Of a DNA stretch of 64,000 nucleotides, positions 13,750 to 55,199 are shown piece by piece (the stretch's first letter is position 1; each line of letters starts with the position of its first letter). Made by a program: the position numbers and the translations under genes. Source of the stretch: Brucella thiophenivorans (lineage in GTDB: Bacteria > Pseudomonadota > Alphaproteobacteria > Rhizobiales > Rhizobiaceae); assembly GCF_002252445.1 (NCBI RefSeq), contig NZ_NNRJ01000006.1:1-64000 (forward strand), written 5' to 3'. Under the pieces are notes generated by a model. That model was not told where the DNA came from. It was given only the letters and a program-made list of their open reading frames with translations, and did no database searches.

Positions 13750-14736
13750 TCAGAACTTCGATAGGTCCTGATGCCGCGCCTTGATTTCACGCACTGTCTG
13801 CGAGCTTGAGCGCATGACGATTGTGTGAGTCTGAATGTAGTCGCGGGCAAATTTCACGCCGGAAAGCATATTGCCATCGGTCACGCCAGTTGCTGCAAAC
13901 AGCACATCGCCCTTTGCCATTTCCTCCATTGTGTAGATTTTTTTCGGATCAGAAATGCCCATCTTGGCGGCACGAGCAATCTTTTCATCAGAATTGAGCT
14001 GCAAACGTCCCTGCATCTGACCGCCAATGCAACGCAGTGCTGCTGCTGCAAGAACACCCTCTGGCGCACCGCCAATACCGATATAAATATCAATGCCGGT
14101 TTCATCAGGATTGGTGGTGTGCATCACACCTGCAACATCACCATCGCCGATCAAGCGAATTGAAGCACCCGTTGCGCGGACTTCTTCGATCAAACGCGCA
14201 TGGCGCGGGCGATCCATAATGCATGCCGTAATTTCATGCGGCTGCACGCCTTTTGCCTTAGCAATCGCGTGGATATTATCGGTCGGTGATGCGTCAAGAT
14301 CGACAACGCCTTTCGGATAACCCGGTCCGACAGCAATCTTTTCCATGTAAACGTCAGGCGCGTAGAGCAGATTGCCCTTCTCGGCAATGGCGATCACCGC
14401 CAAAGAGTTTGGCAGGTTCTTGGCACAAATCGTTGTGCCTTCCAGTGGGTCAAGCGCAATATCGACATCCGGTCCCTGCCGGGTGCCAACTTCTTCGCCA
14501 ATATAAAGCATTGGCGCTTCATCACGTTCACCTTCACCGATCACAACAGTACCGGCAATCGGCAAGCGGTTGAGTTCCTGACGCATGGCGTCAACTGCGG
14601 CCTGATCGGCAGCCATTTCATCACCACGTCCACGCAGGCGCGCTGCGGCAACAGCTGCGCGCTCGGCCACACGGACCAGCTCCAGCGTCAGAATACGATC
14701 CAATCCGTGCGGTTGCTGTTCTGTCGTTTTGGCCAT
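13750..14736 (-). CDS. glpX: Class II fructose-1,6-bisphosphatase
   Basis: 328 residues. GlpX hydrolyses fructose-1,6-bisphosphate in gluconeogenesis. Typical GlpX stretches are present: VIGEGERDEAPMLYIGEEVG, DIALDPLEGTTICAKN (metal-binding DPLEGT) and GIGGAPEGVLAAAAL. In related genomes glpX is usually next to hom and recJ; here an ABC-F gene separates it from hom. A 173-bp gap lies upstream (14737-14909). Confidence 0.95.
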   Translation of the reverse strand: MAKTTEQQPHGLDRILTLELVRVAERAAVAAARLRGRGDEMAADQAAVDAMRQELNRLPIAGTVVIGEGERDEAPMLYIGEEVGTRQGPDVDIALDPLEGTTICAKNLPNSLAVIAIAEKGNLLYAPDVYMEKIAVGPGYPKGVVDLDASPTDNIHAIAKAKGVQPHEITACIMDRPRHARLIEEVRATGASIRLIGDGDVAGVMHTTNPDETGIDIYIGIGGAPEGVLAAAALRCIGGQMQGRLQLNSDEKIARAAKMGISDPKKIYTMEEMAKGDVLFAATGVTDGNMLSGVKFARDYIQTHTIVMRSSSQTVREIKARHQDLSKF

Positions 14737-14909: not shown

Positions 14910-16430
14910 TCAACCCGCAGCGCGTTCGAACAAAATCTCCGGACTATCCACTTCTATTAGCTTTTTTCTGTCGATCATCCAGAAACGATTGCCGACATTG
15001 CGCACGAAACTGCGATCATGCGAAACAATGAGACTGGCCGTTTCATCGCTCAACAATTCAGCTTCCAGCGCTTCCTGACCGTCAATATCCAGATGATTGG
15101 TGGGCTCATCAAGGATATAAAAATTCGGCTTGGTGAGACGCAGAACTAGCATGGCAAGCCGTGCTTTCTGTCCGCCCGAGAGCCGCGACAAGGGGTTCGC
15201 CTGCATATCTAGCGTCATGCCTGCACCTGCCAGCAACGACCGTGCACGCTGGTCGCCCACGTCGAAACTTTTCATGATCGTTTCAAATGGCGTCCAGTCA
15301 CCATTCAGCTCTGATAGAGCCTGATCGGTATAGCCAAGCACCAGTGAAGGCGTCGCCTTAATACCCACAAGCAATTGTTCTGGATGGATGATAGCCTCAC
15401 GAACCAAGGTCAGAAGCCGCGTCTTACCCGTACCATTGGCACCGAGCAGCACAATACGATCGCCGGGATTGACCCAAAACTGACCGGTCTTATAAAGCGA
15501 GCATCCATCAGGTGTTGCAATCTCGGCCTGATCAATGACGATCAGCGCCTTGGCATGGCTGCCGCGACCATCAAGCTTGATCTTACCAGCAGAACGTTCA
15601 ACATGTGCCGATTTCGCACTTTCCTCAATTTTCTCGGCTCTCGCACGCAATTGCTTGGTTTTCACCACCAGCAAATCGCTGCCCGAATTAATGCCTATAT
15701 TGTTGAGCTTCGCTGCCTGTCTGCGCAATTGTTGCACAGTCTTCATGTTCTTCTCAAACTGACGGGCATCAGCGGTATCAATCTCGTTAAGTGCAACACG
15801 CGCCTGACTATAAGGCAGAGAGAAAACAAACGATTTATCCGCACGCAGGAAAAGCGTGCGTTTCGTCACCCTATCGAGAAAAGCCCGATCATGGCTGCAT
15901 ACGATAACCGCCACTGAACGCGGTAGCGCATCAAGCCATTTTTCCAGCAAGTGCACCTTTTCAAGGTCAAGATGATTGGTCGGCTCGTCGAGCAAAAGCA
16001 CATCAGGCTCGGAAACCCATGTTCGCGCCAGAAGCGCAAGCCGTTGCCAGCCGCCGCTCAGTTGCCGAACAGAAAGACCTCGCAATTCTTCAGGAACATT
16101 CAGATCATCAAGCACTATGTCTACGCGCCAGCTTTCATAGTCGCGCGCATCTTTATCCAGTCCACTAAGAACGAGATCATAAAAGGACAGGTCCATCAGA
16201 TCGGCGGAAACATACTGGCTGACATAACCAATTTTCAGCCCCCGCGAACGGGTAATGGCACCGCTGGTCGGTTCACCTTCGCCGACGATAAGGCGCAAAA
16301 GACTGGTCTTGCCGCGACCATTAGCAGCAACGATTCCAAGACGTTCGCCCTCGCCCACGACAAAATCGAGGTTAGCGAACAACGTCTGATTAAGGGTGAG
16401 CGAAAGATTCTGAACAGAGATAAGAGACAT
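14910..16430 (-). CDS. ABC-F family ATPase (possible ribosome-protection protein)
   Basis: 506 residues from MSLISVQNLSL at 16430; an upstream frame extension is ignored because this start matches the family. Two ABC cassettes without membrane segments: Walker A AANGRGKTS near 35-43 with signature LSGGWQR and LLLDEPTNHLD, and a second Walker A LLGANGTGKTR with LSGGQKARL and YILDEPTNHLD. Between them is a charged linker rich in K/R/E (about 215-300), the inter-domain arm that reaches the ribosomal peptidyl-transferase centre in ABC-F proteins. These factors act on the translating ribosome; some give antibiotic resistance. Its leader (16544-16646) looks like an attenuator, which supports an antibiotic-responsive role, but the subfamily is not identified. 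Confidence 0.88.
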   Translation of the reverse strand: MSLISVQNLSLTLNQTLFANLDFVVGEGERLGIVAANGRGKTSLLRLIVGEGEPTSGAITRSRGLKIGYVSQYVSADLMDLSFYDLVLSGLDKDARDYESWRVDIVLDDLNVPEELRGLSVRQLSGGWQRLALLARTWVSEPDVLLLDEPTNHLDLEKVHLLEKWLDALPRSVAVIVCSHDRAFLDRVTKRTLFLRADKSFVFSLPYSQARVALNEIDTADARQFEKNMKTVQQLRRQAAKLNNIGINSGSDLLVVKTKQLRARAEKIEESAKSAHVERSAGKIKLDGRGSHAKALIVIDQAEIATPDGCSLYKTGQFWVNPGDRIVLLGANGTGKTRLLTLVREAIIHPEQLLVGIKATPSLVLGYTDQALSELNGDWTPFETIMKSFDVGDQRARSLLAGAGMTLDMQANPLSRLSGGQKARLAMLVLRLTKPNFYILDEPTNHLDIDGQEALEAELLSDETASLIVSHDRSFVRNVGNRFWMIDRKKLIEVDSPEILFERAAG

Positions 16431-16543
16431 GGCAATAAGCCCAATTCTGTCAAGCACTGATAAGCTGCTCTCAAACAGACTTGATCCACCTGCTTGCAAA
16501 TTTTCGGCTACAGCTATTCAAGCTGCGCCTTTGGAAAAGGCAG

Positions 16544-16598
16544 AAAAAGACTATCGTTTCAGTCTTAATCAGCCCTGCACAAATTATTGTTGCAGGGC
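16544..16598 (-). promoter_or_regulatory. Two leader hairpins ahead of the ABC-F gene (putative attenuator)
   Basis: In transcript order, hairpin 1 has arms GCCCTGCA (16598-16591) and TGCAGGGC (16579-16572) and overlaps the last codons of the leader ORF. Hairpin 2 has arms AAGACT (16566-16561) and AGTCTT (16552-16547) and runs into TTTTTCTG, as in an intrinsic terminator. The terminator stem is short (6 bp), so its strength is uncertain. Position after a leader ORF with a strong ribosome-binding site is that of a translation-controlled attenuator. Confidence 0.5.
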
Positions 16599-16646
16599 AA
16601 AATCAGGGCCATACTGACGATGACGGTCGTGACGCGTCACATCCAT
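16584..16646 (-). CDS. Putative 20-residue leader peptide of the ABC-F gene
   Basis: ATG at 16646 opens a 20-codon frame (MDVTRHDRHRQYGPDFALQQ) ended by TAA. AAGGAGGG (16661-16654), a near-perfect ribosome-binding site, lies 7 nt before the ATG, much stronger than any site before the ABC-F start. The final codons lie in the first arm of hairpin 1, so a stalled ribosome would disturb it. No family known; proposed as a cis-acting leader peptide. Confidence 0.5.
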   Translation of the reverse strand: MDVTRHDRHRQYGPDFALQQ

Positions 16647-16715
16647 ATTACAGCCCTCCTTATCCATATTTGTCTCTTAGTCGGATTATTCCGATGGATA
16701 TTTCTTAGCAAAAAC

Positions 16716-16740
16716 GTTGCCGCCCTTCAAGAGCGGCAAC
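16716..16740 (-). terminator. hom terminator
   Basis: Minus-strand hairpin GTTGCCGC/GCGGCAAC with an internal CTTGAAGG loop, followed by GTTTTTGC, immediately after the hom stop. Confidence 0.75.
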
Positions 16741-16752
16741 TTAAACCGGCAA

Positions 16753-18072
16753 TTAGCCCGCGCGTTCAATGCGGATCATCTGCGGTTTACTGACAAGATG
16801 ATCGTCCTTGAGAATAGCTTCAAGAGACTTTTTCACAGCAGACTCAGTGGTTTCATGCGTGACAAGAATAACCGTCTTAATACCGTCGCTCACGTCGCTA
16901 TCCATCAAAGGTCGCTGAACGATTGATTCAAGCGAAATGTCATTTTCTGCCATACGCTTAGCAATAGCTGCAAACGCGCCAATGCGATCATAAACCGTCA
17001 GGCGAATGAAGTAGCCACCGGCATGCTTGCGCATTTTTGCGCGCTTATATGGCTGCAAGGCTTTCGCAGGTGTGCCAAATACGGGACCATGCTGGAAACC
17101 AGGACGGCTTTTCGCAATATCCGCAATATCGCCAATCACAGCCGAAGCGGTTGCATTGCCGCCAGCACCAGGGCCAGAAAGCAGCAGTTCACCCAGAAGA
17201 TCGGTTTCGATAGCAACCGCATTGGTCACGCCATGCACCTGCGCGATGACCGAAGACGTTGGCACCATCGTTGGATGCACGCGCTGTTCAATGCCGGTAT
17301 CAGTCTTCTGGGCAACGCCCAACAGCTTGATGCGATAACCAAGTTCATCAGCGGCGCGAATATCGGCAAGCGAAATATTGCTGATACCTTCGAGATAAAT
17401 ATCGTCGGCAGCAATCTGCGTGCCGAAGGCAAGGCTGGTCAACAGCGCAAGCTTATGCGCTGTGTCATTTCCTTCGATGTCAAATGTCGGATCAGCTTCA
17501 GCATATCCAAGCCGCTGCGCATCCGCGAGGCAATCCTCAAACGAAATGCCCTCTTCCCACATACGCGTGAGAATATAGTTACAGGTGCCGTTCATAATGC
17601 CGTAAACGCGCGAAACGGTATTGCCAGTCAGTGATTCACGCATCGCCTTGATAACCGGAATTCCACCTGCAACGGCTGCTTCTAAGTTAAGAAGCACACC
17701 CTTTTCTTCGGCGATTTTCGCAAGTTGCACGCCATGCTTTGCGAGAAGCGCCTTATTAGCGGTCACGACATGACGGCTGGCACGCAATGCGGCTTCAACG
17801 GATGCTTTTGCAGAGCCTTCATCGCCGCCGATCAACTCAACAAAAACGTCGATATTGGCGCTTTTTGCAAGTTCCACAGGGTCGTCAAACCATTCAATAC
17901 CGGAGAGATCGACACCACGATCACGGCTGCGATCACGAGCGCTGACAGCAGTAACAGTTACTCGCTTGCCGCACTGACGAGTGAGCATTTCGGACTTGTC
18001 ACGTAGAATACGCAACACCGAAGCACCAACGGTGCCCAGTCCGGCAACGCCGATCCGCAATGCATCACTCAT
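16753..18072 (-). CDS. hom: Homoserine dehydrogenase
   Basis: 439 residues. It reduces aspartate semialdehyde to homoserine for threonine and methionine synthesis. The NAD(P)-binding Rossmann start is GVAGLGTVGASVL; the catalytic core includes AAVAGGIPVIKAMRESLTGN and GIMNGTCNYILTRM, and a C-terminal ACT domain at about 355-435 (RLTVYDRIGAFAAIAKRMAEN) allows threonine feedback. It is separated by 90 bp from the aminotransferase gene upstream on the same strand and has its own terminator downstream. Confidence 0.95.
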   Translation of the reverse strand: MSDALRIGVAGLGTVGASVLRILRDKSEMLTRQCGKRVTVTAVSARDRSRDRGVDLSGIEWFDDPVELAKSANIDVFVELIGGDEGSAKASVEAALRASRHVVTANKALLAKHGVQLAKIAEEKGVLLNLEAAVAGGIPVIKAMRESLTGNTVSRVYGIMNGTCNYILTRMWEEGISFEDCLADAQRLGYAEADPTFDIEGNDTAHKLALLTSLAFGTQIAADDIYLEGISNISLADIRAADELGYRIKLLGVAQKTDTGIEQRVHPTMVPTSSVIAQVHGVTNAVAIETDLLGELLLSGPGAGGNATASAVIGDIADIAKSRPGFQHGPVFGTPAKALQPYKRAKMRKHAGGYFIRLTVYDRIGAFAAIAKRMAENDISLESIVQRPLMDSDVSDGIKTVILVTHETTESAVKKSLEAILKDDHLVSKPQMIRIERAG

Positions 18073-21898: not shown

Positions 21899-21973
21899 GC
21901 GCCCATCGTCTAGCGGTTAGGACAGCGCCCTTTCACGGCGCAGACAGGGGTTCGATTCCCCTTGGGCGTACCA
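21899..21973 (+). tRNA. tRNA-Glu (anticodon TTC), copy 1
   Basis: 75-nt tRNA with acceptor stem GCGCCCA/TGGGCGT, anticodon TTC in CTTTCAC, T-loop GGTTCGATTCC and encoded CCA. Followed by CTTGCTGGTTTTT, probably the transcript end. Confidence 0.96.
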
Positions 21974-22193: not shown

Positions 22194-22268
22194 GCGCCCA
22201 TCGTCTAGCGGTTAGGACAGCGCCCTTTCACGGCGCAGACAGGGGTTCGATTCCCCTTGGGCGTACCA
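22194..22268 (+). tRNA. tRNA-Glu (anticodon TTC), copy 2
   Basis: Identical in sequence to the copy at 21899-21973, 295 bp further on, with encoded CCA. The downstream CTTGCTGGTTTTT motif is also repeated. Confidence 0.96.
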
Positions 22269-54891: not shown

Positions 54892-54954
54892 GACAACCTC
54901 CGTGCAGGCAGCAGGGAAAACCTCCCATGGGGTGCGGACATAATGCCCTTCACG

Positions 54955-55150
54955 CAACAGGCAGGTCTCCTGGCTCACGGGTCGTAAGAAGTGAAACACC
55001 TTCCCAGAAACCCTTCGGTTTCCAGTGGTTGCCGGTTGCCCGGCTTGCCTCATCCCTCTCCGCTCTACAGTCGCGGGGTCGGCTGCGATAAAGACGCCCG
55101 AAATGGGTCCGTCCGTCACATTCCCTTTTGGTATCGCCGGGATTCGTCCG
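54955..55150 (-). promoter_or_regulatory. Cobalamin (AdoCbl) riboswitch
   Basis: On the minus strand the ordered parts of a B12 riboswitch are present: a 5' GGGAATGTGACGG-type segment and CCGCGACTGTAGAG, then GCAAGCCGGGCAACC, the CCACTGG...CTGGGAAGG core stem-loop, and the B12 box AGCCAGGAGACCTGCC (54974-54959). It ends about 65 nt before the cbtB ATG. It is expected to shut off cbtB-cbtA and downstream cob genes when adenosylcobalamin is plentiful. Exact ends are estimated. Confidence 0.92.
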
Positions 55151-55199
55151 GGCAAAGACCTATTGCATAAAACGACACTAGGCCTTCACCGTGATGCCG

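Follow-up and report, generated by a model that had tools for sequence, protein, structure and literature searches.

A conserved leader peptide and a putative RNA switch upstream of an ABC-F gene in Brucella thiophenivorans and other Alphaproteobacteria

The window analysed in this work is the whole stretch of 64,000 nucleotides (nt) of Brucella thiophenivorans (contig NZ_NNRJ01000006.1). Its minus strand carries, in this order, hom, a terminator-like hairpin, a probable promoter, a leader, an ABC-F ATPase gene and a gene that we take to be glpX. The leader consists of a short open reading frame (ORF) with its own Shine-Dalgarno (SD) sequence and of RNA elements that may pair in alternative ways. 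Helices are named after the elements that form them (1:2, 3:4, 4:5 and 5:6). The leader is probably an ermC-like translational attenuator, in which a stalling peptide and an RNA switch would raise ABC-F expression when ribosomes stall. The features are shown in Table 1.

A sequence-only reading of the window had described a near-ideal ribosome-binding site, a 20-codon ORF with a stop codon and a hairpin overlapping the last codons of that ORF. All three are present. The leader ORF sits 153 nt 5' of the ABC-F gene. The promoter motif TTGnnn-N15-GnTAnn is found 10-30 nt 5' of the SD in most relatives. Its consensus was picked after the sequences had been inspected, and its best match scores 8.5 of 12 in 115 unique upstream sequences, compared with 4.7 in shuffles. 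The spacer is 15 in 101 of these sequences.

The ABC-F product is a two-domain ABC-F ATPase. Its best NCBIfam model, the ribosomal-protection-like ABC-F model NF000355, scores 306.2 bits, which is below the cut-off of 380. The best solved relatives are 8buu (the nearest chain), ABCF1 and YheS. The 8buu chain is labelled ExpZ, and presumably it is VmlR2. The product is a probable ribosome-rescue or protection protein. The gene is patchy in the genus, where it is present in 21 of 35 genomes. Patchy presence within genera has been described as a sign of resistance ABC-F proteins, and several such groups have been predicted (PMC6723617).

Table 1. Features of the hom-glpX region in the window. Minus-strand features are given with forward-strand positions.
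Feature	Position	Strand	Basis or remark
hom (homoserine dehydrogenase)	16753-18072	(-)	5' of the leader
Terminator-like hairpin 3' of hom	16716..16740	(-)	terminator scan; parts hom from the leader transcript
Probable promoter, TTGAAG - 15 nt - GCTAAG	16704..16730	(-)	motif; overlaps the hom terminator hairpin
Shine-Dalgarno AAGGAGGG of leader ORF	16654..16661	(-)	sequence
Element 1 (GGGCTGTA)	16649..16656	(-)	in leader SD; pairs with element 2
Leader ORF MDVTRHDRHRQYGPDFALQQ and stop, 20 codons	16584..16646	(-)	ATG at 16646, TAA ends 16584
Element 2 (TATGGCCC)	16606..16613	(-)	holds Gly codon and first two bases of Pro codon
Gly-Pro codons, proposed stall site	16610-16605	(-)	
Hairpin 3:4, GCCCTGCA/TGCAGGGC	16572..16598	(-)	stop codon inside loop
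Element 4, 3' part (GGGCTGATTAAGAC)	16562..16575	(-)	alternative partner of element 5
Second hairpin, AAGACT/AGTCTT	16547..16566	(-)	read as tip of helix 4:5; runs into five T, 16548-16544
Element 5 (GTCTTTTTCTGCC)	16539..16551	(-)	
Small conserved hairpin GCCTTTTCCAAAGGC	16527..16541	(-)	alignment of 21 genus leaders and folds; bases shared with element 5
Candidate element 6 (GACAGAA), 5' of ABC-F start	16445..16451	(-)	by inspection
ABC-F ATPase gene, 506 amino acids, putatively controlled gene	14910..16430	(-)	NCBIfam NF000355, Pfam ABC_tran, solved chain 8buu
glpX (presumed)	13750-14736	(-)	3' of ABC-F gene

The leader ORF looks translated, judging from its conservation, SD, frame and synonymous bias. 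Of the 21 genus genomes with the leader, 20 have an unbroken ORF, which is more than chance. The exception (L015, from genome G002, which is 85% complete and 7% contaminated) carries one extra base in the leader, and its ABC-F gene was found only in three pieces. Among 18 genus leaders, the variable codon columns comprise 11 third, four first and two second positions. The synonymous bias anticipated by the sequence-only reading is also seen, with 10 of 21 distinct codon changes being synonymous compared with 22% of random changes.

The Gly-Pro pair is nearly invariant in the peptide; L202 has Gly-Ser and L203 has Gln-Pro. Most lineages exhibit RGPV and the window exhibits YGPD. Just before Gly-Pro, many lineages carry RQR, RTR or RSR. 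The genus of the window has RQY or RQH there, and genus g96 has HTF. The peptide is MFSLRHQHHHTFGPDYALFH in g96 and typically MNTFFRHHRQRGPVNALQMRLQG elsewhere. The distance from the Gly codon to the 5' arm of hairpin 3:4 is near-constant, at 12 nt in 118 of 134 leaders, 11 nt in 15 (where a preceding G lets the pattern begin one base sooner) and 27 nt in one (L054, an earlier Gly-Pro). The set of 134 omits L091 and L125, whose leaders were missed by the SD rule, and the distant class-wide set. In two genus leaders, L020 (G011) and L021 (G030), about 144 nt are inserted after hairpin 3:4 and ahead of the second hairpin, and both retain an intact ORF and hairpin 3:4.

The 323-nt leader region is matched in 21 of the 35 genus genomes, and these are the identical 21 that carry the ABC-F protein. 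In genomes without the gene (13 of 14 inspected), the gap between hom and glpX is about 75-275 nt in 12 of 13. The leader and the ABC-F gene are gained and lost jointly, because the same 21 genomes carry both and the gap is short where the gene is absent. One genome without the gene, G029 (L192), has a gap of about 950 nt. Among the named contigs listed, the closest leaders are from Brucella pseudintermedia, pseudogrignonensis, grignonensis, pituitosa, tritici and oryzae. Several of these species were formerly called Ochrobactrum.

The exact leader pattern matched only two of 121 family genomes, both within the genus, which was too strict, and it was therefore replaced by a search led by the ABC-F protein. 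This protein is found at E 1e-90 or better in 57 of 297 family genomes. The leader is present at all 30 family loci inspected, 27 of which are in other genera, and all 30 have an AAGGAGG or AAGGGGG SD. These 30 loci are the stronger part of the 57 matches, and the 27 weaker matches are outside the count. A scan of genome contigs with the leader pattern, blind to the downstream gene, returned at least 119 stretches. An ABC-F gene follows on the same strand, 81-300 nt past the leader stop, in 112 of the 112 that are testable. Three other stretches are chance matches without a hairpin (L087, L120 and L134), and four end 85-127 nt past the match at the locus end (L065, L112, L127 and L152). The genera among the matches listed, with titles known for 80 of the at least 119 stretches, are Rhizobium, Sinorhizobium, Ensifer, Mesorhizobium, Aminobacter, Phyllobacterium, Bradyrhizobium, Bosea, Labrys, Devosia, Pelagibacterium and Marivivens. 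For loci L055-L173 the search pattern itself prescribes part of the Arg-Gln-x-Gly-Pro codons and of the 5' arm of 3:4, and conservation at these positions was therefore judged on the protein-found loci (L028-L054, L174-L180 and L195-L207).

A class-wide search of 385 genomes with a Ketogulonicigenium homologue gave 13 matches, one of which is the window's own. Of the 12 more distant loci, 11 carry a leader, such as MLYQRFHDRTRGPVSAPRLISRG, MDCTNTSNYHHFRTRGPVLALQSHVLQG and MSSYNQHHPRGPVPAPQHRVAGRAESRA. The leaders of L200 and L207, both identified by eye and translated afterwards, lack a strong SD. In Rhodobacterales, two plasmid copies carry leaders MARRFHDRTRGPVPAPRLISRG and MLHQCFHNRNCGPVFAPRLTSRG. 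The sequence-only reading had regarded the layout as unusual for an alphaproteobacterium, which these family and class-wide counts contradict; it is common in Alphaproteobacteria.

A different short ORF was observed before gammaproteobacterial relatives of the ABC-F protein (34-35% identity). It has 26-27 codons and a TAAGGAGG SD, lies 189-205 nt 5' of the start, and is seen in all four loci inspected (L177, L209 from Rahnella, L178 from Vibrio and L208 from Morganella). The peptides end in SGISGTVPR, SVTGIVLR, RVSDFALR and SGFSVNAVR. These ORFs possibly form another leader family, whose peptide differs from the alphaproteobacterial one.

The helices were examined in alignment A2, which consists of 67 leaders, and alignment A3, which consists of 28 divergent leaders, each compared with 500 shuffles. 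L111 and L142, which have an insertion, were left out of A2 and of the pair counts in the switch test described below. Compensatory changes, another expectation of the sequence-only reading, are present in stems 1:2 and 3:4. Helix 1:2 is paired at 98.5% in A2, with changes on both sides at three of eight pairs; in one group, base five of GGAGGG goes from G to A alongside a synonymous C to T change in the Gly codon. Hairpin 3:4 is nearly unvaried in A2. It is 99.1% paired in A3, where three pairs are changed on both sides (UA to CG in seven leaders, GC to AU in two and AU to GC in five), as in the arms GCCCTGCA/TGCAGGGC compared with GCCCCGCG/CGCGGGGC. For the whole structure, cells with both-sided changes number 27 against 7.4 in the shuffles of A2 and 23 against 8.0 in those of A3, and no shuffle out of 500 reaches either value. 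Pairs with both-sided changes number eight against 4.4 in A2 (reached by 4/500) and six against 4.7 in A3 (112/500). Further pair types number 21 against 19.9 in A2 (150/500). Covariation is strong by cell counts and not by type counts. The first RNAalifold consensus, built from 18 genus leaders, has covariation at only one of 31 pairs because the genus is too conserved.

Helix 4:5 is paired at 92.2% compared with 90.4% in shuffles (0/500 reach), and it has 11 both-sided cells against 6.3 (17/500). Helix 5:6 is paired at 83.8% in A2, in which the Brucella-type rows are out of register for this helix. Elements 5 and 6 are complementary within their own locus. Own-locus duplexes have -14.9 kcal/mol and cross-locus duplexes -11.9 kcal/mol (permutation p 5e-5; 32 leaders, including L201, L202, L203 and L206 despite their misplaced 3' end). 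The 4:5 comparison in the same test is biased, because element 5 was located via its pairing with element 4. A word of at least six is common to elements 4 and 6 in 48 of 103 unique leaders, compared with 5.1 when element 6 is shuffled, so the two elements look like competitors for element 5.

The switch was tested in silico by holding a 29-nt ribosome footprint open, with the P site either on the Gly of Gly-Pro or seven codons earlier. In 104 unique Rhizobium-type leaders, the expected pairs in helices 3:4, 4:5 and 5:6 are 7.9, 0.5 and 6.6 in the free RNA. They are 2.4, 7.4 and 1.5 with the ribosome at Gly-Pro, and 8.0, 0.4 and 6.7 with the ribosome at the earlier codon, where no switch occurs. 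The Gly-Pro ribosome raises helix 4:5 in 93 and lowers helix 5:6 in 84 of the 104 leaders. The region -16..-7 of the ABC-F gene is open at 0.21 in the free RNA, 0.37 with the ribosome at Gly-Pro and 0.21 with the earlier one (105 Rhizobium-type leaders); opening rises by more than 0.1 in 64 of the 105 and falls in three. In 13 Brucella-type leaders, the expected 4:5 pairs rise from 6.2 to 10.3 with the ribosome at Gly-Pro. Mutually exclusive helices are thus predicted to move with the position of the ribosome in both types of leader. According to these models, helix 4:5 excludes 3:4, and helix 5:6 covers the ABC-F start in the Rhizobium type.

A translational attenuator would work as follows. 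Transcription would begin at the dedicated promoter 3' of hom, and the near-perfect SD would recruit ribosomes to translate the leader. Upon free passage, 3:4 would form, element 6 would be bound by element 5 so that the ABC-F start is covered, and little ABC-F would be made. If a ribosome stalled while its P site held Gly and its A site Pro, the front of that ribosome would cover the 5' arm of 3:4, the freed element 4 would capture element 5, and the ABC-F start would open. The inducer is most likely a ribosome-targeting antibiotic.

Several results weigh against this model. Helix 5:6 does not drop by half a pair or more in 20 of the 104 Rhizobium-type leaders, and 22 of them retain at least two 5:6 pairs. 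The wider region -18..+3 opens only slightly, from 0.38 to 0.44 (up in 104 of 134), and the region -16..-7 and the pair counts were adopted after this small rise had been seen. Helix 5:6 is nearly absent in the 13 Brucella-type leaders (0.3 pairs on average), and their start opening changes just from 0.41 to 0.54, with a rise of more than 0.1 in seven of 14. In the window's own leader (L025), the candidate element 6 is weak, with six of seven pairs to element 5, and the expected 5:6 pairs are 0.0. As 4:5 rises and 5:6 barely forms in the Brucella type, the window shares the sensing half of the predicted switch and has at most a candidate output half. Helix 1:2 is paired at just 80.1% in A3, and the further pair types of A3 (15 against 17.1; 493/500) are not above the shuffles. 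Helix 4:5 has a covariation score of 0.088 compared with 0.104 in shuffles (496/500), and it is backed by complementarity, not by covariation. One of the 12 class-wide loci, L196, has no visible leader.

The same RNA switch could also serve a feedback arrest, in which Gly-Pro stalls unaided, ABC-F resolves the stall, and low ABC-F activity raises ABC-F synthesis. The signal would then be unresolved stalling and not a drug, analogous to SecM reporting on SecA. We consider this unlikely, yet it agrees with the constancy of Gly-Pro while the remaining peptide varies, with the nearness of Arg-Gly-Pro in most lineages to the RGPP and RAGP arrest cores (PMC12992588), and with the action of ABC-F factors such as YfmR on difficult stalls (PMC11990639). 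However, the window and its genus have Tyr/His-Gly-Pro and g96 has Phe-Gly-Pro, without the Arg of RAPP-like cores, and an accessory resistance gene would account for the patchy presence at least as well.

Transcription attenuation, in which the stalled ribosome prevents a leader terminator, is still less probable. The sequence-only reading had proposed an attenuator of the ABC-F gene, with a second hairpin ending in a T-run as its terminator. The leader peptide and the alternative hairpins moving with the gene are upheld; terminator read-through as the common mechanism is rejected. The second hairpin does end in five T in the window, RBS sequestration is weak in the Brucella type, and PMC10314930 describes transcriptional control for the antibiotic resistance (ARE) ABC-F genes that it names. 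However, only 11 of 21 genus leaders keep the T-run whole and the other 10 have it interrupted; among 15 unique Brucella-type leaders it is intact in eight and interrupted in seven. Of 104 Rhizobium-type leaders, just 15 have five consecutive T at any point past the leader. The terminator scan of the window listed the hom hairpin and one plus-strand site, and the short stem of the second hairpin was absent from that list. No conserved intrinsic terminator of the msrD/vmlR type was found between the leader and the gene. The second hairpin is read as the tip of the longer helix 4:5.

An amino-acid attenuator sensing Arg or His shortage is rejected as hardly credible: several His and Arg codons do occur (RHDRHRQ, RHHRQR), but they vary within the genus (codon 8 is Arg, His, Cys or Tyr) and between lineages (FRFNRQR or EHHRQC), the gene is not biosynthetic, and the most constant residues are Gly-Pro and Ala.

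Other features were observed elsewhere in the window. Two tRNA genes of equal score (21899-21970 and 22194-22265) lie 295 nt apart, and matching ORF translations flank both, which suggests a duplicated stretch. A cobalamin riboswitch (85.5 bits) is located at 54943-55178 on the minus strand.

The translational attenuator proposed here is similar to ermC-type attenuators, which have a short leader ORF, a strong SD and competing helices, and in which a stalled ribosome releases the start of a resistance gene. It differs from them in that the leader precedes an ABC-F gene, occurs in Alphaproteobacteria and encodes an unrelated, putatively stalling peptide. The ARE ABC-F genes msrD, vmlR, vgaA, lmo0919 and lmrC also have a leader peptide 5' of the gene, and they are described as transcriptionally regulated (PMC10314930), whereas the leader here has no conserved terminator and its switch would end on the start region. 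The macrolide '+x+' stalling motif is Arg/Lys-x-Arg/Lys at the stall site (PMC10314930). Many lineages have the '+x+'-like RQR, RTR or RSR directly ahead of Gly-Pro; the genus of the window has RQY or RQH and g96 has HTF.

SecM and the RAPP/RGPP arrest peptides, such as ApdP (PMC12992588), share an upstream ORF and, in most lineages, Arg-Gly-Pro near the proposed stall site. The leader here has 20-odd residues, its Arg is not universal, it has no second Pro, and it does not precede a protein-localisation gene. No RAPP, RGPP or RAGP core before such a gene was seen in these leaders. The peTrpL peptide of Sinorhizobium meliloti (PMC7298713) is likewise a rhizobial leader peptide tied to antibiotics, but it derives from a tryptophan attenuator and acts in trans, and no relation in sequence or position was seen. 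The main text of the S. meliloti small-proteome paper (PMC10117765), supplements aside, contains neither the peptide core nor 'ABC-F'. Rfam has no match at the leader in the window or in the 16 tested of the 30 family loci, and no published report of the leader was found in the literature searched, a search outside of which most subscription journals lie. As far as Rfam and this literature reach, the leader family is new, and its general kind is already known.

Tentatively, and with slightly more doubt than confidence, we propose that a stalling peptide spread across the alphaproteobacterial class, whose core has Gly-Pro and usually reads RxRGPVxA(L/P), drives an ermC-like translational switch on a little-studied ABC-F family. 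If so, this ABC-F attenuator would be translational, whereas those named in PMC10314930 are transcriptional. Elements 4, 5 and 6 compete alike although their sequences differ by lineage, which would make the leader a clean model of an RNA switch. The stall motif would hint at the target of an uncharacterised ABC-F family, and the leader would be a natural reporter for ribosome-targeting compounds in these bacteria. It might natively sense a ribosome-targeting compound that rhizobia and their relatives encounter, or it might form a self-tuning loop, with the ABC-F protein resolving the very stall by which it is induced. Stall-responsive ABC-F attenuation would then extend to many Gram-negative bacteria that live in soil or as plant symbionts.
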